Positions 1-14,200 of a stretch of 15,258 nt of DNA are shown one piece after another. A program made the position numbers and the translations under genes. The notes beneath the pieces are model-generated. The model worked only from the letters and a program-made list of their open reading frames with translations. It made no database searches and was not told the DNA's origin. This DNA is from Auxenochlorella pyrenoidosa (taxonomy: Eukaryota; Chlorophyta; Trebouxiophyceae; Chlorellales; Chlorellaceae). Position 1 is the first letter of the stretch; every line of letters begins with the position of its first letter. The stretch spans positions 549,719 through 564,976 of the forward strand of contig KQ482021.1 in NCBI GenBank assembly GCA_001430745.1, written 5' to 3'.

Positions 1-1749
1 GCGTGCAGGCCCTACTTCAAGCTCAAGTCCTTCTTTGCCACCAAGCCGCTGCCAGATGCAGCGCTGCAGGCGATGATCGACTGGGTGCCCAAAATTGACC
101 CGCTGGGAGGGTACATTGAGATCGACCTGATTGGACCAAAGGTGGGTGCCAAAATAGACCCGCCAGGGTACTCCATAGTACAGGGTACTACATACATGTA
201 GTACATTGATATGAAGATCGACCTGATTGGGCCAAAGGTGCGGCGAGCGCACATCTGCGGCATTGCAGGGGTTCGCTTTGCATGGGCATGGGGCAAAAAA
301 GCCTGGCCAGGGGAGCGCTGGGCAGCGCCCGGCGAGTCCAGGGTCTGTGCAACACAGCGTCCAAGGGCTGCCTCCCTTGGCCGGCGCCGCTGGGTAACGC
401 CTGGCTTGCGCCAGCCCTGCTGGCCGGCCGCCCATGGTGCCTCCTTGTGCCGGGTGCACCGGCTGCCAGCAACGCTCTCCCTCCTCGCCTGCCGCCCTGC
501 AGAGCGCGGTGGCCAAGGTCGCCGCCAATGCAACAGGCTTTGCCCATCGCGACGCCCTCTTCTCTATTCAGTGAGATGCGCACCATTGGCCAGCCTCTGC
601 AGTTGGCTCCGCGCCCACCCTGCAAACCACAGCCTATGGACTGCCCTTTTGTCAGCCCTGCTGGGTTCGTGGTCACGGCTGCCACTGCTATCTACACATG
701 CTGCATCCCGCCACAGGTACGCGCGCTGAGTGGCGGCCAGCCCTGCCAACAGCCCCGCTGTGTTGGTGGCCACATCACATTGCCCTGCTGCCATGTCTTT
801 GCAGGTACGGCGCTGAGTGGCAGTCCAAGTCGGTGACCCCCAAGGCGCTGCCGCTGATTGAGTCGCTCCAGCGCCAGCTGAACCCCTTTTTCGACTCGCA
901 GCAGGCAAGCCCGGGCAGCTGCCTGGCACCTTCTCAGGCGGCATGCCGCAGGGCGCTGGCCAGGCGCAGGGGAGGTGGCACAGGAAGGAACCGGGGGGGG
1001 GGGCGCTTGGCCATTGACGATTGGCCATTGGCCATTGGCCAGCACCCAGCCCCTCTTCCAGCTGGCTGCCGTGCACATGGGGCGCGCCAGGCCCGCCCTG
1101 GCAGCCAGCCAGCCCTGCCCCTGCCCCAGCCGACCTCGCCCGCCTGCCGTCGACGGCCCCTCTCTGGTGCACCTGCCCTTCCTTTTGCAGCGCCCCGCCT
1201 ATGTGAATTACATCGACATCCAGATTGGGCCAGACCCGCAGGCCAGCTACTACGGCCAGGACGCCGCCTGGCTGTCCCAGGTGCGCACCGATTATAGACC
1301 GACAGGTGCTTACCCGCTTGCCGACCGGTGCCGGAGACTTTCGAGCACTCAGGATGCGCTGCATTGGCCAGCTGCTGCCAAGGCCAGGCAGCGCTGGCTT
1401 GGCAAGCGGCGCAGGCCCGCCTCCCTGCCCCACGGCATCACAGGCATGCTGCGCATGCCGTGCGATGCGGTCCCAAGGGATGTCGCCGCCCATGGCACAC
1501 TGTTGGCGCCCTGCTTTTGACATCATCGTCTATAGACGCCCTGCTCCAAACGTTGCCGTCCCCTGCCCCCGCCCTCCGCCCCCCCAAGTGGGTTGGTTGC
1601 AACCCCAGTCCATCCACCCCCACATACACACACACCCGGCCCCCACCCCTCCCTTGCCCCTGCAGGTGAAGGCAAAATACGACCCAGAGGGCCTCTTCTC
1701 CTCGAACCCACTGTCCATCCCTGTGGGCAAGCCGGCAGGCCGGCGGTAG
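1..1749 (+). CDS. Berberine-bridge-enzyme-like FAD-linked oxidoreductase, C-terminal part (5' truncated by window)
   Basis: Proposed exons: 1-141, 503-570, 805-904, 1191-1280 and 1666-1749 (TAG at 1747-1749). They join in frame to 160 residues. The protein shows the usual end of the BBE family (FAD_binding_4 followed by the BBE domain, PF08031): FAHRDALFSIQYGAEW in exons 2-3 (the HR..lf.iqY...W block), then AYVNYIDIQIG and YYG in exon 4, and KYDPEGLF with NPLSIP in exon 5, matching the family's aYvNY.D, YyG and yDP..lF...sIP blocks. Such enzymes oxidise small-molecule alcohols, sugars or alkaloid precursors with covalently bound FAD; the flavin-binding half lies upstream of the window, so the substrate cannot be inferred. 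The intron after exon 3 has a GC donor (CAG|GCAAGC at 905). Exon 1 and exon 3 both have decayed partial copies in neighbouring introns (142-237 and 717-745). The 3'UTR runs to a TGTAA at 2032. Confidence 0.85.
142..240 (+). repeat. Partial tandem copy of exon 1 with its donor site, BBE-like gene
   Basis: Bases around 199-240 repeat the end of exon 1 (ATCGACCTGATTGGRCCAAA followed by GGTG) 96 bp downstream, and 142-172 repeats the earlier stretch GGGTGCC..AAAAT.GACCCGCC. An AT-richer piece containing TACATACATGTAGTA sits between the two halves. The real donor is taken as 142-143, the copied donor as 238-239. Reading through 142-237 meets TAG at 199-201, so using the second donor would truncate the protein. 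Confidence 0.75.
717..745 (+). repeat. Decoy copy of the exon 3 acceptor and exon start, BBE-like gene
   Basis: CCACAG followed by GTACGCGCGCTGAGTGGC (acceptor AG at 715-716) is a diverged copy of the true junction TTGCAG followed by GTACGGCGCTGAGTGGC (acceptor AG at 803-804), 88 bp upstream. Similarity continues upstream as ACACATGCTGC..CC versus CACATTGCCCTGC. Because one base is shifted, splicing to the copy gives a TGA within three codons. Confidence 0.75.
1007..1041 (+). repeat. Four-copy TTGGCCA (CCAAT-like) heptamer array in an intron
   Basis: TTGGCCA occurs at 1007-1013, 1021-1027, 1028-1034 and 1035-1041, the last three directly abutting. Each core TGGCCA is palindromic, and the reverse complement reads TGGCCAATGGCCAATGG, so the array holds several CCAAT pentamers. 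It lies in the GC-donor intron of the BBE-like gene, just after a run of G. It may be an expansion, or a cluster of CCAAT-type protein sites; function is unknown. Confidence 0.7.
1600..1665 (+). repeat. Pyrimidine/CA-rich tract before the last exon acceptor
   Basis: The end of intron 4 of the BBE-like gene is CA/C-rich (CACATACACACACACCC followed by C/T runs) and ends in CCCCTGCAG at 1657-1665. It acts as the polypyrimidine tract of the 1666 acceptor. Confidence 0.6.
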
Positions 1750-2031
1750 CTGTGGGATACTTGCGGGAATGATTCTTGCAACCATAAGTTGGCAGTGGTG
1801 ATCAACGTGGCAGTTAAGGCATCAGTGTATTGCACCCAGAATCACACCTCGAGGCTTACCCAGCACCTGTTCTGCCCTCCTACCGTTCTCCCTGCCTGCC
1901 AGCTGTACTGAGGAACTTGCTCTTTGTGCGCCAAGTGCACGGTCATCCCACATTAAAATGCCTCAGTTGCTGTGTGTGCAGTCAGTCCCACGCCATGCCA
2001 GACGGCGGCTGTCATGTCTCTTTTCCAGCAC

Positions 2032-2036
2032 TGTAA
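2032..2036 (+). terminator. TGTAA polyadenylation signal for the BBE-like gene
   Basis: TGTAA is the common chlorophyte near-upstream polyadenylation element. This is the first plus-strand TGTAA after the stop codon (about 283 nt downstream). It lies 1 bp from the opposing signal at 2038-2042. Confidence 0.6.
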
Positions 2037-2037
2037 G

Positions 2038-2042
2038 TTACA
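2038..2042 (-). terminator. TGTAA polyadenylation signal (minus strand) for the SirB1-like gene
   Basis: The plus-strand TTACA reads TGTAA on the minus strand, about 120 nt after the minus-strand stop at 2162. It is the only minus-strand TGTAA in that stretch. Together with 2032-2036 it makes TGTAAGTTACA, so the two convergent transcripts should overlap by a few tens of bases. Confidence 0.6.
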
Positions 2043-2161
2043 ACTGCAGCAGTTCGAATCTATTGAAGCTCAGAGCACAGCGAAGAATGTACACGACATG
2101 CACAGATTTTGTAGCATGCACACTGCGCAGACAAATTGGGCAGCGAGGACGGCGTGGGCGG

Positions 2162-5100
2162 TCACCACGTGAGCGGCAGCCGGCTGTCGTCGTCTTGCTG
2201 CGCTGCAGGCGGCGGCCGGCGCAGCGCGCCCTCCAGGCTCAGCGCCTCTGGCGCCGCCTCCACCCCCGACAGCAGGGCCAGCAGCCTGTCTGTGAGCTGC
2301 TGCTCGCTCAGCGTCTGGCCCCCCGCAACGACCTGCAGGGCAGGGGCAGTGCGGCTCGTACTGCGCTTTCGCTTGTTTGTTTGGGCTTGAAGTCTGTCTA
2401 CCCGCAACGGAACTTGCGACGCAGACCCAAAAGACCTTGCGAACCAGCTCAGACAAGTGGCCATGAATGCACACTGCGAGAGTGCCATGGACACTCCCAT
2501 CTGCTTGGTGCCAGCAGGGGCAGATCAGCTCTGCTGGGCAGCGGCACGACAGAGGGCGCTCACCACTGCGCCGGTCGGTGTGAGGGAGAGCGCGGGGGCC
2601 GCCCCTGCTGCCGCCGCCGCCTGCGTGCTGCGCATGAACTGCTGCAGCTCGGCTTTCGCCTCTGCGGGCGGGCAGGGCCGGCACAGCAGCTGTGCGCGAG
2701 TCAGACTGTATGGCAGCCTGGCGCACGTGGCAGCCGGGAGCTGCAGGCGAGCCCGTGTGCTGGCTGCCACGCCACAGAGTGGGCGCCTCCAGACAGCGAC
2801 GCCCATCCCCCGTAGGCGTGGGCCGCCCCTTTCCGGTGCAGCATGTGCAGGCGCGCCCCACGACAGAGTGTCTGACCACCCTTCCGTTGGGCCCACCTCT
2901 GAAGCGCCCCTCCCACCCGCCCCCCACCCCCCGAGCCCCACCTCTGAAGCGGCCCACATGCATCAGCAGCACCGCAAGGTCTCGCCGCTCCAGGGGGCAG
3001 CTGTCGCCCAGCAGCAGCACGAGCCGCTCGCAGGCAGCCAGGGCGCGCCTGCAGCGTCCACAGCGGGGGGGATGACGTTTGCGGCCGGCCCGGCAGCAGC
3101 GGCGCCAACAGGGAGGCCGCGCCGGAGCTGCCCAGCAGGCCGGCAGCAGGCGCTCAGGAGCGCTGCTCCCAGTATGGAAGATGCAAGGCCATGCGAGCGT
3201 GAAGCTGGAGGTGCAACATGGAGGATGCAAGACCCCGCGAGCGTGGAGCTAACTGTGCAGGCAAGCATGGGGCTAAGAGCGGCATGAAGATCAGCGGTGG
3301 ACACCACGCAGGCGTGAAGCTAGGAACGAAGCTGGAGGCGCTGCACCTGATGTCCCCCGCGCCGGGAGAGGTCCAGATGCCTCGCTCTAGCCGGTGCTTG
3401 GCGGTACGGCTGATGGCCTGCGGGGCGGGAGGGTGGGCGGGCGGGCGCGCCCGGCGCGTCATGTGAATGCTCCTGTTGTGTTGTGTTGTGGGGCTCCGCC
3501 CGGGGCCTGGCGGTACAAGTGAAGGCCACCAGGGTGGGGGGCACACGCCGAGCAGGCAAGATGCGGGGTCAGGGGCGTTGAGCTCCTCTAAGAGCTTCGC
3601 GGGTCGGCCAATAGCCACATGCCGCAGACACGCAGACAGGGCGGGCGGCCCCACACCCAGCGAAGGCAATTCCGCCAGCCCAACCCCGGTTGTCGAGGGC
3701 CGCCCGGAGCTGATACCAGGGCCCAGGGCCGGCGGTCATCAAATGGTGCATGCCATGCACGCCCTGCGCAGCACACGCCCTGCCTCCTTGCTTGCACAGC
3801 CGAGCAGCCGACCTGCAGCCCTCCCACGGCGTCCCCACCTGCATGGCCGCGTCGCTCTCGCCCTCCAGGAACACCCGGGCCGCCGCCGCAAAGCCGCCGC
3901 CGCTGCCGGCGCCACTGTCCCACGCAAAGGGCCAGAAGCAGCGCTTGAGGAAGCGCAGCATTTCGGCCAGCGCATCGGTAGAGCAGGTGTTTAGCACTGC
4001 ACCGGCAGGCAGGGCCCGTCAAAGTTGCAAGCAGGTTCGAGCACTGCGCTGGCAGGCAGGGTGGCGCTGTGAGCAGGTGTTGAGCACTGCACTGGCAGGC
4101 AGGGGGCATCAACGTTGCGAGCAGGGTGGGGGCGTGCGCCGTGGACTCGGGGAGTGGCCGTACGCATACAGGGGCAGAGAGCAGCAGCAGCAGAGCGGGA
4201 ACCGCCCTGCACTGCCGCAGGCAGTGAGGCAACGCCCCGCCCTGCTCCGCTCCGCCCCGGCGCACTGTGGCAGGCAGCGAGGCAGGGCCTGGCAGCGCAC
4301 CAGTGCCGTCGGGTCGCACCACGGCGGCGCGCGGCAGCGGCAGCGCCGCCACGCGCGGCGGCGCCCCCAGGTCGCTGCAGTCGACCTTGACAGCAAAGTC
4401 CATGGCGCCCTGCGGGGTGGGGTGGGGTGTGGTGGGGGGTATTGTCTAGATTGTCAAGAATGAATGAAGAATGAAGAGGCGGTGCAGTCCACCTTGACAG
4501 CCAAGTCCATGGCACCCTGTGTGTGTGTTTGTGTGGGTGGCGTGGGTGGCGAGTCGTGGGTGGAGTGGTGGGGATGGTGTGTGTATGTGCATGTGTGTGT
4601 GGGGGTGGGGGTGGGGGGGCAGCGAGGTGGGCGCAGCAAGGGAGGAAGCTGTCAGGGAGGTGTCAAGAAGAGGAATAAGAAACGATGGAGGGGAGCGCCC
4701 TGGCGGGCCAGGGAGGCAGAGCTTGGCGGGGGAGGCAGGGAGTGCCGCAGGCGGGCACCCACCATGAGGAGCAGGCGCCGCACCAGATCCTCCAAAATGA
4801 TGGCCAGCACTGCAGAGGCAGGCAGGCGGGCGCAGCAGGCAGGTGGGCACAGCAGGCAGGGGAGCTGGCGCGGGCGGGACGCGCGGTGGTGGGCAGGGCT
4901 CCGCATGCCTGCCTCTGTTGGCAAGTTCTGGCAGTTCGCAAGAGCTCTGCCGTGCCTGTCCAGTGGCAACGATAGTCAATACCCAGCCTGGGCAGCCTTA
5001 GCATGGGCACTAGAGCACCAGGGCACTGAGCCTGGGCAGGCAGCGGCACCCAAGGAATGCCCCGGCTGCGGGCCAGCGCCGGCCCACGGCCAACCCTGCC

Positions 5101-6896
5101 AGGCAAGCAGCAAGGCGCATCAGGCGGCGGCAGAGGGCGGCAGAGGGCGGCGAACCTGCCGGGATGCCCTGCTTGCGGGTGAGCACCTCGTTTAGGTATG
5201 CATGTGAGGCTCGCTCCCACACACCAGGGTGGTCCAGGACGGCTGCAAAAGGGGGTGGGGGGTGGGGGGGTGGGGGGGGGCCGCACGTGGGTAGGCAGGC
5301 AAGCAGGACGGTCGGGCGCTGTCGAAGCGCGCTGGGCGCCGTCGAAGCACGCTGGGCCTGCTGGCAACCGCGGTAGTGTGCCTCAGGGTGGCATGCAGGG
5401 CAGCCAGAAACCAGGGTGGCTCACAGACACAGTGCGCCCGCGGGGACAGCCCCTGACGGCTGGAGACGCACGGCACGGCAGCAGATTGGCAGGCACGCCC
5501 AGCGGGCACAGCGGGCGCCGCACCTTGGCCCGGCAGCGCGCTGCGCCCCGCGGCTCGGAAGCCCTGCCGCTCAAACAGGTACCGCCGCAGCACCTGCAGT
5601 ACCGCCTCGCTGCTGGGCCTGCCGCCGCTGCTGCCGCCGCCACCACTGCTCTGCTCGCTCCCACCGCCGCCGCCCGCAGCACTGCTGCCACTCCCGCTGC
5701 TACCGCTGCTGCTGTTACCGCCCTCCAGCCCGCCCTCACTCCCAGCGCTTGCTGGCGGCAGCTCGGCAAGCAGCCGGGCCAGCTCCACTGCCATGCGCTG
5801 CAGGCGCTGGCGGTACGCCTCCACCGGAAGCTGCGGTACAGGTCAGGGGGTGCAGGGATGGGGTCACGCCAGCTCCCCAGCCATGCGCTGCAAGTGCTGG
5901 CAGTACGCCTCCACCGGAAGCTGTGGTACAGAGAGTGCCGGGGCAGGGGGTGCCAGGGCAGGGGGCGCAGCAACAGGGGTCACGGCCGCAAGCCAGGATG
6001 GGCATGGGCATGCGGGCTGCCTGCACGGCTCGGGTGCTGCGCACCTGCCGGCAGGGGAGGCAGGCTGCCAGCACGGCGCATGCACTTCCGCTGCTGAAGA
6101 AACAAAAAGACGAGCCCAGGCACGTGCAGGTGCATGCCAGGGAGCCCGGCCAAGGCCCCCCAGCCGACATAAAGCGCCACGGTTGTATGCAGATAAGCGC
6201 CGGGCTTGCCTGCACCGACGAGTGCGACACCAGGGCGTCGTCCTCTGCCGCCACGTAGAGCGCGGCGGCGGCCAGGTCCACCGAGGCCTCGCCCTCGGCG
6301 ATGCAGCGCAGAAAGGCGCGGCGCGCCTCGTAGGCGTGCTGCGCCGAGAAGTCGGTCCTGCGGGCGCGGCAGGATGGCATGCAGGGGCGAGCCGCAGTCG
6401 GGCACACACAATCACTTGAACAGCCAGTCAAGTCGAGGTGCGGGCAACTGGACGCATGAGGCGCATGAAAGGGAAGGAGTCGGCGCCAGCAGAGGCAGCA
6501 TTTGCAGGTAGGGCGGAAGAGGCGGCCGGGCGGGCGGCGGCGGTGCCGTGCCACGGGGTGTTGGGCCAGCCAGTTCGATCGCCTGGTCTCTGCGTGACTG
6601 GAAGGCGATGCTCACCTCCTCCAATTCGGGTAGTCCTCGGGGGTACAAGGCTCAAAGCGCCTCTCTGGTTGCGCCCGCGACAGGCGCTCCACTCGGTCTT
6701 TCTGGCATCCTGCTAGCCTCCGTGGCGCGTGAGCAGCGACAGGGGGGCCAACAAACTGGCTGGGCAGGTGGGCAGGCAGGGCCAGCGCCTGAGCTCCCGA
6801 CACGGCTGCACAACCTGGAGCAGGCATGGCCTGTCCTGAAAATGTGATCGATACGCCGCAGACAGCAGCATGAGGGAGGGCACCTTGTGCCGGCAT
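2162..6896 (-). CDS. SirB1/FBXO21-type transglutaminase-like-fold protein with TPR-like C-terminus, probably plastid-targeted
   Basis: Proposed exons, 5' to 3' on the minus strand: 6896-6616, 6357-6210, 5830-5524, 5242-5156, 4809-4763, 4409-4301, 3996-3839, (3594-3547 optional), 3417-3347, 3048-2942, 2661-2564, 2332-2162. All phases close, giving 527 residues (543 with the optional exon). Residues 1 to about 45 are rich in A/P/V/L and poor in acids, like a chloroplast transit peptide. Residues about 105-142 (AYEARRAFL..IAEGEASVDLAAAALYVAAEDDALVS) and YLNEVLTRKQGIP plus LAIILEDLVRRLLLM (261-290) match the Transglut_core2/SirB1 N-terminal family (PF13369). RALAACERLVLLLGD, RRDLAVLL and GRFREAKAELQQFM resemble the TPR-like tail of SirB1. 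A Ser/Gly-rich insert spans about 173-216. The biochemical role of this family is not established. The 6209 donor is GC. The start is the first ATG in the frame that stays open into exon 1; an upstream exon cannot be excluded. Confidence 0.8.
2371..2428 (+). repeat. Dispersed hairpin element, copy 1
   Basis: This 58 bp block matches 13015-13067 in the same orientation: GCTTGTTTG..GGGCTKGAAGTCTGTCTA, then GCAACGGAA, GCGAC and CAGACCC. It can fold as GTCTG(2392-2396)/CAGAC(2422-2426) and CGCAA(2403-2407)/TTGCG(2414-2418) around the loop CGGAAC. It lies in the last intron of the SirB1-like gene, antisense to that transcript. Confidence 0.75.
2895..2950 (-). repeat. Duplicated donor of the TPR-like exon (45 bp period)
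   Basis: On the minus strand the exon end CGCTTCAGAG|GTGGG occurs twice, with donors at 2941-2940 and 2896-2895. The spacing is 45 bp, and the sequence between is Gly/Arg/Trp-coding without a stop. Use of the distal donor would insert 15 codons between GRFR and EAKAEL. Confidence 0.7.
3174..3254 (+). repeat. Diverged two-copy tandem repeat, about 44 bp period
   Basis: ATGGARGATGCAAGRCC..GCGAGCGTGRAGCT occurs at 3174 and 3218 in the intron between 3347 and 3048 of the SirB1-like gene. Further weak copies of GCGTGAAGCT..GCTGGAGG are seen to about 3340, next to the donor at 3346. It has no coding role in the model. Confidence 0.65.
3990..4110 (-). repeat. Array of three exon-start copies with acceptors (exon 7 of SirB1-like gene)
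   Basis: On the minus strand, CCTGCCRGYGCAG|TGCT is seen with first exon bases at 3996 (taken as real), 4043 and 4086. The 4086 copy continues as TGCTCAACACCTGCTC, almost the same as the real TGCTAAACACCTGCTC. Spacings are 47 and 43 bp. Splicing to the 4086 copy reads into TGA before the real exon. Confidence 0.75.
4482..4520 (-). repeat. Decoy copy of the exon 6 acceptor and exon start
   Basis: On the minus strand, ACAG|GGTGCCATGGACTTGG then GCTGTCAAGGTGGACTGCA copies the true exon 6 start at 4409 (GGCGCCATGGACTTTG then CTGTCAAGGTCGACTGCA). The offset is 107 bp (4516 versus 4409). The changes are mostly at third codon positions. The copied frame then reads to TGA. Confidence 0.8.
4519..4619 (+). 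repeat. GT/G-rich simple tract in an intron
   Basis: Long alternating GTGTGT runs grade into GGGGTGGGGG. On the transcribed minus strand this is a CA/C-rich pyrimidine tract ahead of the decoy acceptor at 4517-4518. Such tracts can form Z-DNA or G-quadruplex; no gene is seen in it. Confidence 0.7.
5251..5280 (+). repeat. G-run (C-run on the transcribed strand) before an acceptor
   Basis: Runs of 5, 6, 7 and 9 G separated by single T. On the minus strand it is the polypyrimidine tract before TTTTGCAG at 5243-5250. It has potential to form a G-quadruplex. Confidence 0.65.
5867..5935 (-). repeat. Decoy copy of exon 3 (LPVEAY...) with its acceptor
   Basis: On the minus strand, CTTCCGGTGGAGGCGTACTG begins at 5920 after GTACCACAG, 90 bp upstream of the true exon 3 start at 5830 (CTTCCGGTGGAGGCGTACCG after GTACCGCAG). 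The copy codes LPVEAYCQHLQRMAGELA and then TGA, against LPVEAYRQRLQRMAVELA in the real exon. The strong residual similarity suggests a recent copy. Confidence 0.85.
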
Positions 6897-6995
6897 TGGC
6901 GCTGTGCGCCTTGCGGGCGACTGCAGGCATGCCTGGCAGCGCACTTATGGCGGCCGCCGGCAGGCAGAGTGCAGCTGCATCTCTGGTGCCGCAAA

Positions 6996-7020
6996 GGATA
7001 TAAGCAGCACATATAAACAG
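6996..7020 (-). promoter_or_regulatory. Possible TATA-like promoter element of the SirB1-like gene
   Basis: The minus strand reads TTTATATG then CTTATATCC in an otherwise GC-rich region, about 100-120 nt upstream of the chosen ATG at 6896 and just after the expected 3' end of the next gene. The position suits a core promoter. No transcription start evidence is available. Confidence 0.35.
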
Positions 7021-7051
7021 GCTCGCCCTTTGCGCGTACCCCATACTTGCA

Positions 7052-7056
7052 TTACA
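7052..7056 (-). terminator. TGTAA polyadenylation signal of ankyrin gene A
   Basis: The minus-strand TGTAA (plus TTACA) lies about 190 nt after the stop codon at 7248. It lies beyond the duplicated block, so it has no equivalent behind the second ankyrin gene. Confidence 0.55.
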
Positions 7057-7247
7057 AGCAGATAGGCAGCATTGGTCGAGGGTGCTGGAGGGAGGGATGT
7101 AGGTGTGGGGCCCGCGCAGATAAGCAATCAAGAAATGTCAGGCGCAGATGGACAGCCAGGCAGCAACACTGGGCCATGCCAGGAAGAGGCGGCACGCAGG
7201 AAGGGGGCTGCAGGAAGCGGGGCCTCGGGAGTGCTGCCAGATTGCAG

Positions 7248-8084
7248 CTAAGAGAACGCAAGGTCGAGGATGCGGGTGGTGAGCTCTTGGGGCAGGTGGG
7301 ACCGCTGCGTGCGCTGCACGCGGGCCAGGCTCAGCACGGCGCAGCGCAGGCGCTCGCGCTGCTCCTTCGGCAGGCGCTGCACCAGCAGGCCCGCCTCGAC
7401 ATGCGAGCGCGCCAGCACGGCTGGCAGCAGTGGCGCCAGCGCGGGGCAGGGCGTCGGCACCAATGCCCACTGGTCCACCGTGAGCGGGGCAGCGGCCACA
7501 ACCTCTGCGTACCCTGGCAGCGCCAGGTCTGCGCTCTGCACATGCTGCAGAGCCTCCAGCTGCTCATCGGTGGTTGTGCCCAGCATGAGCAGGGCGCAGA
7601 TTGCCTCTTCCGTATGCCGCCCAGTGAACTGCGTCAGCACGATGTCCAGAGGCGTGCGCCCTTGATTGTCTCTCTGCAGCGCTGCCTCTGGCGCAGCCTC
7701 TGCCAGCAGGCACATTTCGTCGAAATTCCTCCGCTCCGCCGCAACGTGCAGCGGCAGGGAGCCACGATGGTTGGCAACGAGGGCGGCCGCTGGCTCTACG
7801 GCCAGCAACATGTCCACCACGCCGTACCCTCCACTGTTGTCAGAGGCCGCCTCATGCAGCGGTAGGTTTCCGTCCACAAAGTCTGGTATCAGGGCCGCAG
7901 CCGGGGCCGCAGTCGCCAGGATCTCTGCCACTTCACTTCGGCCGCTAAAGGCCGCGAAGTGCAGCGCGGTACATCCATTTGGCTTCCTCATTAGCGCTGC
8001 ATCTGGGTGCTGTGCCAGGATCTGAGTGACTGCCAGAGCATCTTCATCGTCCGTTGCATCCCACAGCACCTGAAGGATGTCCAT
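7248..8084 (-). CDS. Ankyrin-repeat protein A
   Basis: A single open coding exon of 278 residues. Four ankyrin-type repeats are visible: GCTALHFAAFSGRSEVAEIL (about 36-55), DGNLPLHEAASDNSGGYGVV, RGSLPLHVAAERRNFDEM and QGRTPLDIVLTQFTGRHTEE, so a protein-binding role is likely. The last ~120 residues are not ankyrin. They are helical-looking and end with LPQELTTRILDLAFS, which recalls the first helix of an F-box (LP.El...Il.L), but the match is too short to call. The ATG at 8084 is chosen because an acceptor (CACTGCAG) stands 2 nt before it, and a GTGAGC donor at 8222 suggests a 135 nt 5'UTR intron that would remove the in-frame upstream ATG. It is one half of a tandem pair with 9185-10027. The partner and target are unknown. 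Confidence 0.85.
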   Translation of the reverse strand: MDILQVLWDATDDEDALAVTQILAQHPDAALMRKPNGCTALHFAAFSGRSEVAEILATAAPAAALIPDFVDGNLPLHEAASDNSGGYGVVDMLLAVEPAAALVANHRGSLPLHVAAERRNFDEMCLLAEAAPEAALQRDNQGRTPLDIVLTQFTGRHTEEAICALLMLGTTTDEQLEALQHVQSADLALPGYAEVVAAAPLTVDQWALVPTPCPALAPLLPAVLARSHVEAGLLVQRLPKEQRERLRCAVLSLARVQRTQRSHLPQELTTRILDLAFS

Positions 8085-8086
8085 GC

Positions 8087-8223
8087 CTGCAGTGCAGCGA
8101 GGGGGGCGGGGCAGTGGCGGGGCATGTTGCATTTGTGAGTTGGTGCCACCAGCAGCGGCGGCAGGACGGCTCCGGGCTCTCACTGTGCAAGCTGTCCGGC
8201 CCTGCAAGCCGCGCTAGCTCACC
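8087..8223 (-). other. 5'UTR intron of ankyrin gene A
   Basis: The donor at 8222-8221 (CATCACGG|GTGAGCTAGC) and the acceptor AG at 8088-8087 lie just before the ATG. The donor context and an internal CTCACAAATGCAAC are conserved in the paralogue, whose intron is 10153-10039. CTCAC sits about 45 nt before the acceptor and could be the branch site. Confidence 0.6.
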
Positions 8224-8640
8224 CGTGATGCAAAGGCGCGCCCCTTTTGCTGCGGCGCTCCTGTCCGGAAGCGCTGCTCGCCTGCAGGGTGAAGTCAGCA
8301 GGCAAAACACTCAGATCGCATTACAGTGCTTGAATCGAGACTGTTCAAGCGACATAAGCGCGTGACGACGCCCCAGACCAGCAGGCTCCGCTTGTATGCT
8401 TTGTTGGAGCGGGCTCGCCTTTACGAACGATCGGATGAGGGAGCAGAAGAATTGGATGAGAAAAGAAACCGCAGCCGTGCAGGCTGGAAATCACCGCCCC
8501 GCTGCGGTGTGGGCAGCCTGCTGTGTCTCAGTCAGCAAGCACCTGTTGCTTGTTTGACACGCTGTCCAACCCCATGCCTGGGTATTATGAACACTTGCCA
8601 GGTAGTGTATCACCGGGCCAATTCAGGAATCCTGCATGGA
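8224..8640 (-). promoter_or_regulatory. 5'UTR exon and promoter region of ankyrin gene A
   Basis: Blocks shared with 10154-10560 include GAGCAGCRCT, CTGCAGGCGAGCAGC, ATGCGATCTGAGTG, CGATCGT and GCGGTGATTTCC (minus strand). No canonical TATA box is seen. The conserved ATGCGATCTGAGTG opens a uORF of 8 codons here (stop TGA). The transcription start is not identifiable by eye. Confidence 0.45.
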
Positions 8641-9104
8641 AGCCGCCGCGCAGCGGGGGTATGTGCGCTGCACGCGCCAGGCACTGCCCGCATAGCAGGA
8701 GGACATTTGTAAGGGGGCAACCAGTAGGTTGGGCGGCAGCAGCAAGCAGGGCACTGGTGCGTCCACCAGGGGGATGCTGTGGACAGCACTGCATGTTTTA
8801 GCCAACCACCATGACACATCAGCTTCCTTGTAAGCACTCATTCATTGTGTTGCCCGCCTCGGCTGGTCGATGGCACCTTCCACCCTTCCCTCGCTCCCGC
8901 TCGCACTGCTTAGCCCCCTGCACTCCCATCCACCCGGCCCCCTAGCCGAAAGAGATCGTTGATGAGCGGCTCTCTTTTGCGCGTAAGTTGTGCAAGCACT
9001 ACTTGCAGGCAGGCAGCAATGGCTGTAGGTGTTGAAGGGGAGGATGCAGGTCTGGGCTTGGCGCCCCAGGGCAGCAGGCACAAAGACTGGGAAAGGTTTT
9101 GTGA
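8641..9104. other. Spacer between the ankyrin duplication units
   Basis: About 460 bp without a supported gene. It is less GC-rich than the flanks and shows no clear match to the other unit. Plus-strand TGTAA occurs at 8708 and 8828, but no plus-strand gene precedes them. No minus-strand TGTAA serves the ankyrin gene B upstream. Confidence 0.5.
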
Positions 9105-9184
9105 GTGACACGATCCAGGAACAGGCGGCATGCAGGAAGGGGGCTACAGGGGGCAGGTGCCTTGGCAGCGCTGCCAGTTTGCAG

Positions 9185-10027
9185 CTAGGAGAGCATAAGG
9201 CCCAAGATGCGGGCGGTGAGCTCTTGGGGCAGGTGGGACCGCTGCGTGCGCTGCACGCGGGCCAGGCTCAGCGCAGCGCAGCGCAGGCGCTCGCGCTGCT
9301 CCGCCGGCAGGCGCTGCACCAGCAGGCCCGCCTCGGCATGCGAGCGCGCCAGCACGGCTGGCAGCAGGGGCGCCAGCGCGGGGCAGGGCGTCGGCACCAG
9401 TGCCCACTGGTCCACCGTGAGTGGGGCAGCGGCCACAACCTCTGCGTACCCTGGCAGCGCCAGGTCTGCGCTCTGCACATGCTGCAGAGCCTCCAGCTGC
9501 TCGTCGGTGGTTGTGCCCAGCATGAGCAGGGCGCAGATTGCCTCTTCCTGGCCTGTGACCTTCAGAATGTCCAGAGGCTTGTGGCCGTCGACATCTTTGC
9601 GCTGCGCTGCATCTGGCGCAGCCTCTGCCAGCAGGAGCAGCATTTCGAGGTCGCCCATACCCTCTGCCGCGCAGTGCAGCGGGAGGGAGCCCCAGTCGTT
9701 GGCGACGAGGGCGGCCGCTGGCGCTGCGGCCAGCAGCACACGCGCCACCGCAGCTTGTCCCTCGTGGGCCGCATCATGCAGGGGTAGATTGCCATCATGG
9801 GAGTCTGGTATCAGGGCTGAAGCCGGGGCCACATCCACCAGGATCTGCGCCACTTCCGCACTGCTGCTGTGCCAGGCAGCTATGTGCAGGGCGGTATATT
9901 CACCATCAGGTGCCAGCTCGAGCGCTGCAGCTGGGTGCTCTTCCAGGATGCGACGAACGGTCAATGCGTCGCCAGCATGCACTGCATCAATCAGCGCCTC
10001 AAACGGGCCCTCTGGCAGTGCGTCCAT
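9185..10027 (-). CDS. Ankyrin-repeat protein B
   Basis: A coding exon of 280 residues, paralogous to the 7248-8084 gene. Ankyrin units: YTALHIAAWHSSSAEVAQIL, DGNLPLHDAAHEGQAAVARV, WGSLPLHCAAEGMGDLEM and DGHKPLDILKVTGQEE. From EEAICALLMLG to the end it is almost the same as protein A, ending LPQELTARILGLMLS. The ATG at 10027 follows an acceptor (TTCTTTCCAG, AG at 10040-10039) by 11 nt, with a conserved GTGAGCTAGC donor at 10153. An upstream ATG at 10252 (conserved context ATGCGATCTGAGTG) opens a uORF that crosses the splice junction out of frame and overlaps the main start. No minus-strand TGTAA is found within ~540 nt of the stop, unlike gene A. Same unknown role as protein A. Confidence 0.85.
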   Translation of the reverse strand: MDALPEGPFEALIDAVHAGDALTVRRILEEHPAAALELAPDGEYTALHIAAWHSSSAEVAQILVDVAPASALIPDSHDGNLPLHDAAHEGQAAVARVLLAAAPAAALVANDWGSLPLHCAAEGMGDLEMLLLLAEAAPDAAQRKDVDGHKPLDILKVTGQEEAICALLMLGTTTDEQLEALQHVQSADLALPGYAEVVAAAPLTVDQWALVPTPCPALAPLLPAVLARSHAEAGLLVQRLPAEQRERLRCAALSLARVQRTQRSHLPQELTARILGLMLS

Positions 10028-10038
10028 GCCCGGAGAGC

Positions 10039-10153
10039 CTGGAAAGAAGCGGGGGCGACGTGTTGCATTTGTGAGATGGTAGCAGTAGTGGCAGAACGGC
10101 CACGGGGCGCTTCCTTTGCAAACCGCCCGGCCCTGCAAGCCGAGCTAGCTCAC
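10039..10153 (-). other. 5'UTR intron of ankyrin gene B
   Basis: The donor CATCACAA|GTGAGCTAGC (GT at 10153-10152) and acceptor TTCTTTCCAG (AG at 10040-10039) give a 115 nt intron. It keeps the CTCACAAATGCAAC block of its paralogue. Confidence 0.6.
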
Positions 10154-10560
10154 TTGTGATGCGAAGGCGCGTCCCTTTGCTGCGGCTCCCTGTCCGGGAG
10201 TGCTGCTCGCCTGCAGGGTGAAATCAGCAAGAAATAAGCACTCAGATCGCATCAGTGTGCTTAAATTGAGGCTGTTCACGCCACAGGAACTCCCGAGTGA
10301 CCAGCCCGAACCAGCAGTTGCCCCTCTCGCAGGCTTTGTAGGAGCGAGCCCACCTTCAGTAACGATCGGACGCAGGAGCGGATGGTTTGTGTGCGAGTGA
10401 TGACCGCAGCCGTGCATTCTGGAAATCACCGCTGCATGGACGGCTGCACGCTGTGTCTCGCTCAGCAAGCACTTGGTTACGCAAACATGCTTCCCCGACC
10501 CCTGCATGGGTGTTCATGAACACATTCCAGGTACATGCATCACTGGCCAAAACAGGAGGC
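10154..10560 (-). promoter_or_regulatory. 5'UTR exon and promoter region of ankyrin gene B
   Basis: Homologous to 8224-8640. The shared uORF start ATGCGATCTGAGTG is at 10252; here the uORF stays open to the splice site. There is no recognisable TATA box. Confidence 0.45.
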
Positions 10561-11265
10561 AAGCCTGCCTGCAGCCTTGTGACCTGGGACCAGTATGATG
10601 GATGCAGAGAACATGGCTGCAGCATGCCGCCTTCGTTGGCTTCATGCCACACATGCCAGCATTCAATGAAAGCAACCGCATGTGAAACAGCCTGTCTCTG
10701 CCCACGAGGGGAGGACCGCTTGCAGCGGTCTACGTGTGCTGCCCTGCGCATGCTGCGGGCCACAGCGCCGCCGCCATGGGGAAGAAGGCCAGCGCCCGGA
10801 TATGCAGATGCGTGTTCCTTTGCCCTACACGGCTTCTTCACTCGATCCTTGAGCCCAATTGCGCTGCAAACCTGTGCTCAGCCCTTTCCCCGCTGCCGGA
10901 CGGCTGTGCCGCGCCCCGTGGTGAACACTGCTGACCGTCGCCGGAGCACTCTGGGGATCCTCTCTGCGAGAGGCTGGCTGCAACGTAGGTGGGTGTCCGC
11001 CGCTTGGTGTTCTGGTGGCCACCCCCGCCGCCGCCGCTGTGTTTGCCCTGCCTTCACGTGGCAAGCTGTGTAGCTGTGCTGCCACTAGAAGGGCCACAAG
11101 AAGGGGTCAAGATGCAGCAACAAAGCTCAGGGCTGTGCGGGGCCCCAATTGCCCCTGCCGCTGCTGCTCAAGGCCGTGTGTGGCTGGGAACTGCGTACTG
11201 CTTCATCGAACGCTGATCACAAAGTGCATGCGCCATTGGGCTGCAGGGTCAAAGGCTGCAAGGGC
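10561..11265. other. Divergent intergenic region between ankyrin gene B and the SGNH hydrolase gene
   Basis: About 700 bp without a supported coding exon. It should hold the plus-strand promoter and 5'UTR of the hydrolase. A G-box-like CACGTGGC is at 11055-11062. No TATA box, RNA gene or repeat is recognised. Confidence 0.4.
11055..11062 (+). promoter_or_regulatory. G-box-like CACGTGGC upstream of the hydrolase gene
   Basis: CACGTGGC is a classic plant/algal bZIP/bHLH binding core, about 210 nt upstream of the chosen ATG. A single occurrence could be chance in GC-rich DNA. Confidence 0.25.
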
Positions 11266-14200
11266 ATGCAGCTGGCAGCGGCGCGCTGGGGGCGCAGGGC
11301 CGGGCCCGTATGCCACCAGCCAGGCGCCTGGCCATGCGCACGAGCTGGGCCGGCCCTTGCATGCCTCCTAATGCTGCTGGCGTGCGCCTGCGAGGCGGCA
11401 GCAGGAGCAGGGGACCTGCCGCGGCGAGGAGGTAGGGCTTGCGGCATTCTTGCTGGCCCTGCTTCCAAAGTGGGGGTCACTGGAGCCAGCGGGCACGCGT
11501 ATGCAACCCCAGGCGATCCCCCACCTGGCCTGCTGCCTTGCTGTGACACCCATTGTGAGCCTGTCCACCTCGTTGTGCAGAGAGGGGTCTGCGGCAGGTC
11601 GTTCCAGCCGAGCTGCAGGTGCGTCTTCCTTGCCGGCGGCCCACTGGCCCGTGGCAGGCTGCAGCAGCGGCGGTGTACAGGGCAACCGCCCGGGGTGGGG
11701 ACGTGTATTTGCCGCGGGCTGGGCTTCAGCCCGCACGGGCAGCACGGGCAGCATGGGGCTGCTCTGTGCAGCTCAATTCAGAGCAAAGCTGCCCGACTGC
11801 GCGCCCCAGCTCGCCCCTGGCCCTTACCCACACCCGCACCCACCAGCACCAGGCTGCGCCCCGCTCCCTCCCTCCCCGCAGGTGCCCTGGCCGCCGCTGC
11901 TGACGCCAGCTGAGGTGCAGCGGGGGGTGTACCACGGCAGCGGCGGCGCACTGCGCGCGCTGGCCGCCAAGCTGCGCGCCGGGCAGGGCGTGACGGTGGT
12001 CCTGCTGGGCGGGTCGGTGACCAACGCGGGGGAGCTCTCGCGGCAGGGGCTGAGCTACGCCGCGCGCTTCTTCAACTTTATCAACTCGACCTTTCCAAAC
12101 CCGTGAGCGGGCTGGGCAGGACCCGCTGGCGCAGGGTGCTTGGCGCCGACCGAGCAGGCTCGTCGCGCTGTGCGGCGCCGCGCCGTCGCTGCCCCAGGCC
12201 CCTCCCTGCAACGCCCCAGGCCTGGCGCCGTCCAGACGTGCCCCGTACTCCCTCGCAGCGCCCCCTGGTCCGCCCGTCTGCGGGGCCCGCCCCGGCAGTC
12301 CCTCCCCGGCGTCATCGCACGAGCCCAAACCGCTGCGCCCGCTGCGCCCGCCCCGCAGGGCCCACCGTTTCATCAACCACGGCATGCCCTCCTCCAACTC
12401 GGGCTGGTTTGCGCCCTGCGTCGACGTGCTGGTGCCCCCCGGGGCAGACCTGGGTGAGCTTGCATGCCCGCCTGGCTGGCTGGCTGGCTGAGCCTGTTGG
12501 GAAACTGGGTGACGAGAAGCTGCCGGGCACCAATCTGGGTGAGCCTGAATGCACCCTGGCTGGCTGAGCCTGCGGAGAAGAGGCTGGGTGCCTTCTGGGC
12601 GGTGGAGCAGGCAGAGGGCGTGCTGGCACCCGGCATGGAGAGGCTGAGTTCCTGCTGGGCAGGAAAAACAGGCTGAGCGCACACCTAGCTGCGTGCCCCC
12701 CCCCCCTCCCACCCTACCCTGCAGTTGTGGTGGAGTTTGCGGTGAACGACAACCAGCAGGCGCCCATCACCTCGCCGCGACGCCACTTTTACGAGCAGCT
12801 CCTCCGCCGCCTGCTGGGCCGCCCCGCCGCCCCGGCGCTGCTGCTGCTGCACCACTACTCGTGGTTCCTGGCCACGGGGGACGGCCTGGACGCCGGCCTG
12901 TTCTACAACAACCCCGAGTCCTCCTTCCACTGGCTGGCACAGGCAAGCAGCATGTTGCTCGCTCGTGCTGCCTGCAGCGGGGCGAGCCGCCCCGTGAACA
13001 GCCCCTGCCTGCGTGCTTGTTTGGGCTGGAAGTCTGTCTAATCGCAACGGAAGTGCGACACAGACCCCGCTGCAAGCAGCATGCTGCAGCATGCAACCGG
13101 CCCCGCTGAAGGCAGCACGGGCTAGCGAGCGGCCGAGTTGCAGGGGACAGGGCCGCTTGGGTGGGACGCTGGCAGGGGGCGCTGGTGGGTCCCCAAGGCT
13201 GCGCCGGCTCCTCCGTGGGAGCCCGGCCCGCTCTATTTGCCCCCCCTCCCCTCTCCCCCCCACCCCCCCACACCCCCTTCTTCGCCCCTGCGCAGTACTA
13301 TGACCTGCCGTCTGTGTCCCTGCGGGCGGCGGCCTGGCACCTGATGCAGCTGGGCATCGAGGGGTTCAAGGCAAGGGGCTGTTGGGGAGCTGGGCAGCGG
13401 CCTGGGGCCGCCAGTTGGCAGGCGGCAGCGCACGGCTGCCAGCCCGCGCTGCTTGCCCGGGGCGCCGGCGTCCGCTGGCACTTCTGCGCCGTGCGCTGCG
13501 CACCCCGCCTCCCTGTAAGGGGCGCGGAGCCAGCAGCTGCAGCCAGAGGCCAGGCGTGTCCTGGCACCGCACCCGGGCAGCCAACCGAACCGATGCGCGC
13601 GATGCGCGCCACCCTGCCTGCCCTGCAGGTGGAGCAAGTGTTGCCACCTCGCCCTGCCACCTTGCCCTGCCACCTGCCCTGTCACCCTGCCCTGCCACCC
13701 TGCCTGCCTGCAGGTGGACCAAGTGCTGCGGCCCGGCAGCCAACCAACCTGTGTGTGTCAATTACTGTAGGACTTTACATCTTAGATTGATCAATTGATC
13801 ATGGCGCCACCGTGCCTGCCTGCAGGTGGACCAAAGGCTGCGGCCCGGCAGCCAACCAACCTGCGTGTGTCATTCACTGTAGGACTTAAAATTTAAGATT
13901 GACCAATTGATCATTGCGCCACCGTGCCTGCCTGCAGGTGGACCAAGTGCTGCGGCCCGGCATCTCATACGCCGGCAGGCCGCTGCCGCAGGCGGACCCC
14001 TCCCAGAGCAGCCAGTACATTTACGAGGACTTGTGAGCAGGAGGGGACACGCTGTGCTGTGCTGTGCTGCGCCGTGCTGTGCTGCGCTTTACCGTGTTGC
14101 TGTGTTGCGCTGCGCTGTGCTGGGCCATCACAAGAGCCCCATGCTCAGCGCGGGCGAGCGCTGCTGTGCTCGCTCCCTCTGCCCCGCCCTCGAAGGCGTG

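Follow-up and report, generated by a model that had tools for sequence, protein, structure and literature searches.

Copied exon-intron borders in three genes

The analyzed DNA, a 15,258-nt stretch of the Auxenochlorella pyrenoidosa genome here called the window, contains nine exon-intron borders with copies in the intron, distributed over a berberine-bridge-like, a SirB1-like and an SGNH/GDSL-like gene. The original prediction had named eight such junctions, with neighboring copies spaced 43 to 112 nt apart. All eight were located with their copies on the intron side and the spacing was borne out; however, the count was incomplete, as a ninth case was found at the acceptor of the exon starting at 3417 (copy near 3526). 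Instead of the approximately 24 introns assumed for the window, we delimited 20 complete ones.

The borders at 142 and 805 of the berberine-bridge-like gene (plus strand) were checked by alignment to solved berberine-bridge-like enzymes. The exon end with its donor (119..144; intron starting at 142) matches an intronic copy at 215..240 over 26 nt at 96%, and the join to position 503 fits the alignment with 6eo4; the decoy donor carried by the copy, at 238, has a site score of 6.2 vs 7.0 for the true donor. The acceptor border of the exon starting at 805 (802..828), read from the sequence and with an exon join that also fits the 6eo4 alignment, recurs with one small gap at 714..740 (gapped scan score of 17, offset of 87), where the decoy acceptor at 717 scores 4.6 vs 6.5 for the true one.

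Five borders lie in the SirB1-like gene on the minus strand. Those at 2941, 3996, 4409 and 5830 were checked against six SirB1-like proteins of Chlorellaceae (P0001 to P0006), while P0070, which reads through introns, was left aside. The exon end and donor at 2937..2955 (intron starting at 2941), where the exon join was set by alignment, is matched by a copy at 2892..2910; its decoy donor at 2896 scores 6.1 vs 5.4 for the true donor and, if used, would add 15 amino acids in frame. At the ninth border (3384..3432, exon starting at 3417; gapless score of 20, offset of 109), comparison with the intronic copy at 3493..3541 showed that the decoy AG is lost; no extra residues are present here in five of the six relatives, whereas P0006 from Chlorella variabilis has 11. 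The acceptor border at 3992..4014 (exon starting at 3996, join set by alignment) is matched by two copies, at 4039..4061 with decoy acceptor 4043 and at 4082..4104 with decoy acceptor 4086. The border at 4373..4412 (exon starting at 4409), supported by its copy match and the relatives' alignment, has a copy at 4480..4519 whose decoy acceptor at 4516 is weak (−2.2 vs 9.2 for the true site). On the same evidence, the acceptor border at 5778..5841, which includes 53 nt of the exon starting at 5830, has a copy with decoy acceptor 5920 at 5868..5931 (64 nt at 91%).

In the SGNH/GDSL-like gene (plus strand), the borders at 12454 and 13938 were checked against P0072 and P0073, and both were confirmed by the spliced-looking 440-amino-acid record P0072 at 100% identity. 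The donor border at 12450..12467 (intron starting at 12454), placed by protein alignment and copy comparison, is repeated at 12535..12552 with a decoy donor at 12539 (site score of 5.2 vs 5.0 for the true donor). The acceptor border at 13918..13962 (exon starting at 13938), placed by copy match and protein alignment, has three intronic copies: one 112 nt upstream at 13806..13850 (decoy acceptor 13826; period of 112 by TRF), a second at 13694..13738, also reported by TRF, whose decoy acceptor at 13714 scores 11.0 vs 9.9 for the true site, and the most diverged one at 13609..13653 (decoy acceptor 13629; 64% identity to the reference copy). According to TRF, the array at 13694-13962 consists of 2.4 head-to-tail copies of 112 nt, and the 20 nt preceding the border at 13938 are identical to those at 13826 (20/20) and nearly so to those at 13714 (19/20).

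Collectively, alignment to protein relatives assigned the coding exon to the outer copy for all eight first-listed borders, and the aligned relatives contained none of the extra residues expected from any of the eight decoys. The homology is longer on the exon side in six of the nine cases and shorter in three. In some cases (4409 and 2941), the expected unit can be recognized only in part, and their tandem origin is therefore read from position rather than from full-length homology. Gene finders trained on this genome were misled by the copies and called small exons at some of them.

Frequency in the window and in a genome sample

Borders were compared without gaps with their own introns at a score threshold of at least 16, in the window and in about 99 kb of genome sequence outside it, where the gene models came from an HMM trained on window plus sample and are model-only. 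The threshold was reached by 7/40 window junctions and 9/269 sample junctions, while in the control comparison of borders with other introns it was reached by 1/374 and 1/2658, respectively. Chance similarity is thus excluded as the source of the copies, and to this extent the original claim that they are too many for coincidence holds. Several of the nine sample matches represent low-complexity sequence, minisatellites next to a donor site or a repeat within coding sequence. A permissive gapped scan was discarded on account of its high control values (score of at least 20 in 14/313 sample junctions, but also in 8/313 with the intron reversed), and a stricter masked scan was put in its place; at a score of at least 13, the controls of the latter gave 1/40 and 0/313 for reversed introns and 0/302 and 1/2488 for other introns, in window and sample, respectively.

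Counted per intron at a single threshold, border copies were present in 6/20 introns of the window vs 7/155 elsewhere (P = 0.001), making the window an outlier. Two sample introns (L014 8404 and L027 5470) were left out of this final count, as they match through coding repeats; retaining both gives 6/20 vs 9/157 (P = 0.0025). Three of the nine window cases (805, 2941 and 12454) escape the threshold behind the 6/20, and the sample counts are therefore likely to be low too. Self-alignment of borders across the rest of the sampled genome did not bear out the proposal that the phenomenon is general, as about one such intron in twenty was found there.

The further copies include those at two donors in L028 (5015, near perfect and 88 nt apart, and 5310, 91 nt apart) and at acceptors in L004 (44 nt) and L020 (101 nt). 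Of the seven sample cases kept, that in L017 looks doubtful on inspection and that in L027 contains CTG repeats; some sample copies consist solely of exon sequence, and in these the splice site may not have been part of the duplicated segment at all. The L004 donor (110 nt) resembles a further old case and was left out of the counts. Contig C36 holds four of the seven border cases outside the window and contributed 22 of the 157 introns. The density of duplications in L027 plus L028 (11 in 15.4 kb vs 13 in 87.2 kb elsewhere, P = 0.0003) pointed to a contig-wide hot spot on C36, but 5 of these 11 are by eye lysine/alanine-rich coding repeats, and the hot spot is therefore kept as a lead only.

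The figure for the length of all 20 window introns was 305 nt, compared with a sample median of 221 nt. Window introns that carry no border copies likewise exceed the sample median, and border duplication is therefore not the sole source of this length.

Geometry, decoys and competing explanations

The duplication unit measures a fifth to a half of the intron length, and crossing of a border is therefore to be expected. When the best event per intron was considered, a border was crossed or copied in 6/9 window introns vs 4.2 expected (P = 0.18) and in 7/14 sample introns vs 6.7 expected (P = 0.55). Statistically, as far as a sample of this power can show, borders are thus crossed no more often than the ratio of unit to intron length predicts, and against geometry the argument from coincidence fails. 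At the level of single points, at a score of at least 13, junctions had roughly threefold the coverage of random points within introns (5/40 vs 8/211 in the window and 8/313 vs 12/1515 in the sample), an excess that is partly due to the method, since the search at interior points ran on a single side and some sample matches are artifacts. These counts are compatible with a modest preference of duplication for borders. Both the threefold coverage and the surplus of border cases in the window could suggest that duplication is targeted there, with replication stress, R-loops or transcription-associated breakage at splice sites as possible triggers. However, at the event level the counts agree with geometry in both the window and the sample, and much of the point-level excess would follow from the one-sided control search and from a slower decay of copies that bear exon sequence; targeting is not needed and we consider it unlikely.

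As had been claimed, at seven of the eight first-listed borders use of the decoy leads to a stop, and the original prediction had proposed that decoys buffer or regulate splicing. Selection could indeed maintain them as competing sites that regulate or buffer expression, a stop codon committing the transcript to decay. Random intron extensions of matching lengths, however, gave a stop in 2053/4065 trials, about half, so that seven of eight is weak evidence (binomial P of about 0.035). The best decoy equals or exceeds the true site in strength in 3/8 cases, and AG or GT is intact in 11/12 window decoy copies, but the latter is expected because all but one of the nine window cases came from a reader seeking splice sites; among copies found by scanning (3417 in the window and seven in the sample), just 2/8 keep the dinucleotide and 6/8 do not. 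Furthermore, the decoy at 4516 is very weak, and ten paralogue introns lack comparable copies, with 0/20 of their junctions scoring above 10 compared with 17 to 51 at window borders 142, 805, 3996, 5830 and 13938. A regulatory or buffering role therefore finds little support and appears quite improbable. We infer that the spliceosome now mostly ignores the decoys, on the grounds of protein conservation for six of the first-listed borders and, for the other two, of the spliced-looking record as well. Another possibility is that the copies serve as real small alternative exons in some transcripts, as in the potato RdRp gene. One version of the trained gene finder called such exons at 202-237, 13629-13637 and 13714-13722, and the next version called them at 202-237, 13714-13750 and 13826-13878; nevertheless, no such residues occur at the eight borders in the relatives' proteins or in the 100% identical P0072, and this reading is highly improbable.

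The original prediction had also invoked intron gain or growth by tandem duplication, and these two parts fared differently. In favor of Rogers-type gain through duplication of segments containing AG and GT, the copies at several borders (13938, 142, 805 and 2941) carry AG-GT. However, the two flanks of an intron, at its donor and at its acceptor, match each other in register no more than by chance, with a score of at least 10 in 1/176 introns vs 1.25 expected from shuffled pairs, and both SGNH-gene introns tested occur in paralogues: the intron at 13371-13937 in both paralogues read and the one at 12454-12724 in one of two. Intron gain is accordingly extremely improbable. Growth, in contrast, is supported by the paralogues, a comparison that covers two introns of this one gene. 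The intron between GFK and VD, which holds the 112-bp array, spans 567 nt in the window, whereas its counterparts at this position in two paralogues have 118 and 154 nt, and the intron between DL and V spans 271 nt vs 157 nt in the C30 paralogue. An introner or mobile-element origin was rejected for the four of nine arrays that were searched, including 5830/5920, each of which matches only itself, at a single place in the searchable genome.

Tandem duplication and intron length

The copies at the nine borders are best explained as ordinary short tandem DNA duplications that happened to cross a border and then probably became part of the intron, since the outer copy continues to encode the right protein; we assign this reading a probability of about three in four. 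The copies have likely lengthened old introns without changing the protein. A duplication of such size would cross a border in roughly one case out of two, and the lineages still using the outer site would have kept the reading frame and survived. Every event would thus add one unit to the intron and leave a decoy behind. The decoy would then decay while selection holds the true exon copy, so that exon-bearing copies would be recognizable longer.

Splice sites duplicated in cis were reportedly studied by Reed and Maniatis in 1986, who are said to have let two copies of one acceptor compete, with the upstream copy beside an exon fragment of 14, 55 or 205 nt. The borders described here similarly place an exon fragment, mostly of about 16 to 53 nt, beside the inner acceptor, but the arrangement is natural, recurrent and green-algal, and is known here from sequence. 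In another study, the authors' own tests of such constructs gave very inefficient splicing that used the distal site exclusively (PMC5389562). In the potato RdRp gene, a tandem duplication across an intron-exon border led to use of both acceptors and to a new intron and exon segment; the first intron is also said to contain an 83-bp duplication, which left the gene structure unchanged (PMC4974935). As in potato, the segments duplicated here comprise an intron tail or head plus exon sequence, and border crossing brings the acceptor and the head of the exon along. Unlike in potato, the relatives' proteins indicate that the inner copy is skipped and that neither exon nor intron was gained: the residues that a new exon piece would add at the eight borders are absent from the relatives and from P0072. 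Moreover, nine borders in three genes are concerned. Tandem-duplication intron gain likewise relies on a local duplication supplying spare AG and GT signals, but in the introns tested here the flanks are not mutual copies, and two introns preexist in paralogues. Drosophila intron gains are described as sheltered by nonsense-mediated decay (PMC2809761). Stop-bearing missplicing products could similarly be cleared here while the arrangement settles, although the Drosophila case concerns new introns and ours would concern decoys in old ones. No account of border copies that recur and are taken up into introns was found in the available text of open-licence PMC papers.

As the copies misled the gene finders trained here, they are a practical warning for the annotation of algal genomes. 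To our knowledge, intron growth that does not involve transposons is poorly documented; here, growth by whole duplication units is readable event by event, and one gene can be compared with its paralogues. Since three of the eight cases have a decoy that equals or outdoes the true site in strength, the arrays constitute natural tests of splice-site choice, and where nearly identical acceptors share one intron, the site used tests for cues beyond the local sequence. More tentatively, and with a broader reading that we regard as possible but rather doubtful, border-crossing tandem duplication may act in short-intron genomes as a neutral, one-way engine of intron lengthening, with some genes or regions as hot spots, in which the outer site would always win even against an equally strong rival because splice choice would follow exon context (exon definition) rather than strength or nearness.

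Genes, introns and a dispersed element in the window

The genome around the window comprises 51.6 Mb in 65 contigs, and protein comparison placed the window genes nearest to Micractinium. The SirB1-like protein, encoded on the minus strand, matches that of Micractinium sp. CCAP 211/92 at 87%, and the SGNH/GDSL-like hydrolase matches its relatives P0072 at 100% and P0073, from the same Micractinium strain, at 83%. The window also carries the end of a berberine-bridge-like oxidase gene and two ankyrin-repeat frames (7219-8500 and 9156-10432, minus strand), which form a tandem pair with 300 nt at one end at 93% identity.

Twenty complete introns were delimited by hand from protein alignments. In the berberine-bridge-like gene, the alignment with the solved enzyme 6eo4 crosses the borders DLIGPK/SAVAKV and SIQ/YGAEW without insertion, as do six Chlorellaceae SirB1-like proteins at VQ/LPVEAY, LLM/GAMDF, DGT/VLNTC and GRFR/EAKAEL. 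At a ninth border (MQ/AISRT), five of these six show no insertion, whereas the sixth, from Chlorella variabilis, carries 11 additional residues. The P0072 protein (440 aa) is identical to the SGNH query at 327 of 327 residues (100%), and its record looks like a spliced transcript, because its contig measures 2244 nt vs about 3.1 kb spanned by the same exons in the genome.

GC-AG introns were unusually common, four of the 20 curated introns starting with GCAAG (at 905, 12943 and 13371 on the plus strand and 6209 on the minus strand); GC donors occurred in 27 of 162 introns predicted by an HMM that was itself seeded with GC donors. Two unrelated genes carry, within introns, copies of a roughly 60-bp dispersed element (2371-2430 and 13011-13070; the second copy 88% over 42 nt). 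A genome search with 2350-2445, in which 40 of 151 candidates were scored, gave at least 39 matches outside the query (56-68 bp at 89-95% identity, in both orientations and distributed over many contigs). The folded strand forms a small hairpin, the element had no Rfam match at the gathering threshold, and one unmasked copy, near 3266 of sample locus L027, falls in no predicted gene.

Copies of exon-intron borders

The intron-side copies of eight borders claimed in the original prediction were all found by comparison of the window sequence. They concern the donors at 142 (copy at 238, plus strand), 2941 (2896, minus) and 12454 (12539, plus) and the acceptors at 805 (717, plus), 3996 (4043 and 4086, minus), 4409 (4516, minus), 5830 (5920, minus) and 13938 (13826, 13714 and 13629, plus). 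A new, ninth case is the minus-strand acceptor at 3417, with a copy near 3526 in which AG is now TG. Gapless homology at these nine borders spans 8 to 157 nt; its longer part is exonic at six of them (142, 805, 2941, 3417, 4409, 5830) and intronic at the other three (3996, 12454, 13938). Longer homology towards the exon would be the expected result of selection acting on the true exon copy. AT-rich stretches of about 40 nt lie within some unit copies in GC-rich surroundings (165-205 and 13745-13800, by eye).

Breakpoints were read by eye, without a statistical test. In the 112-nt array, exon sequence ending CCCGGCA is joined to GCCAACC; upstream, around 13572-13586, there is a similar CCCGGGCAGCCAACC. 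At 5830, exon CTGGC is joined to intron sequence near a second CTGGC; at 142 GGTG marks the join, and the copy contains some 40 nt of other sequence. Judged from the sequence, homologies this short (4 to 7 nt) are compatible with slippage or microhomology-mediated joining.

Border copies exceed chance similarity. With a score of at least 16, a border matched its own intron at 7 of 40 junctions in the window and 9 of 269 in a sample of 135 predicted introns from unmasked stretches of 12 further loci, whereas borders matched other introns in 1 of 374 and 1 of 2658 control comparisons, respectively. Of the nine sample matches, one at the L004 acceptor (44 nt) is a clear border copy, two are minisatellites located in introns at the donor (L004 131 and L017 rc4445) and one is a coding repeat (L014 8404); the others are of low complexity or doubtful. 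These minisatellites (L004 131-470, 25 nt; L017 minus strand 5127-5555, about 33 nt) start no more than 3 nt from the donor and so include it in the repeat. Two loci on the window's contig enlarged the sample to 157 introns and, together with a masked gapped scan, contributed the L028 donors 5015 and 5310 and an L020 acceptor.

By a single threshold, border copies were present in 6 of 20 introns in the window vs 7 of 155 in the sample (P 0.001), or in 6/20 vs 9/157 with two coding repeats kept (P 0.0025); the window is expected to be extreme, because it was chosen for its border copies. A regional hot spot on its contig is possible. Outside the window, local duplication density at L027 and L028 on this contig (C36) looks above that elsewhere, about half of it being coding repeats.

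Whether duplications prefer borders was judged from nearby duplications whose copies are spaced 25 to 320 nt, in introns plus 60 nt of flanking sequence, low complexity being masked. The geometric expectation placed a tandem unit of given length in the intron at its pre-duplication length. The best event per intron crossed or copied a border in 6 of 9 window cases (4.2 expected) and 7 of 14 sample cases (6.7 expected). All events, coding repeats included, gave 8/16 (5.3 expected) and 11/26 (11.2 expected); with the unit defined by the aligned length alone, the expectations fall to 2.9 and 5.7. Counting against the absence of any preference, point-level coverage was about threefold higher at junctions than at random intron points (5/40 vs 8/211; 8/313 vs 12/1515). 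As the control points were searched to a single side and slower decay is expected of exon-bearing copies, this was read as a modest excess at most.

Strength of the decoy splice sites

Using donor and acceptor matrices trained for this analysis, we scored each true site and its best decoy, obtaining 7.0 and 6.2 at 142, 6.5 and 4.6 at 805, 5.4 and 6.1 at 2941, 4.6 and 4.1 at 3996, 9.2 and -2.2 at 4409, 3.0 and 1.9 at 5830, 5.0 and 5.2 at 12454, and 9.9 and 11.0 at 13938 (99th percentile of intronic sites: GT, 5.6; AG, 6.6). As the decoy equals or exceeds the true site at three of the eight borders, site strength alone fails to explain why the exon lies at the outer site; the explanation would have to come from exon context or from selection on the product. 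AG or GT is intact in 11 of 12 window copies, which were selected by a search for splice sites. Among the copies found by scanning (3417 and seven sample cases), two of eight keep it (L004 and L028 5015); the other six show TG, CC, GC, CA, CG and CG, and exon-only copies may be among them.

Growth versus gain of introns

The original prediction also invoked intron gain or growth by tandem duplication, and only growth held up. Gain from a duplicated AG-GT segment would make the donor and acceptor flanks copies of each other, and none of 176 introns looks like such a Rogers-type case. Further SGNH family members exist in the genome, and two paralogues, on contigs C48 and C30, were read. The GFK/VD intron is present in both, measuring 567 nt in the window vs 118 nt in C48, where its donor is also GC, and 154 nt in C30; three extra copies explain 309 nt of the difference. 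The DL/V intron measures 271 nt in the window vs 157 nt in C30; C48 lacks it and has one positioned four residues farther upstream, whereas both occur in C30. In border-copy score, no junction among the 20 in the ten paralogue introns exceeded 10. These comparisons of paralogous sequences argue for growth of existing introns, not gain, with ordinary short tandem duplications that cross borders probably lengthening old introns.
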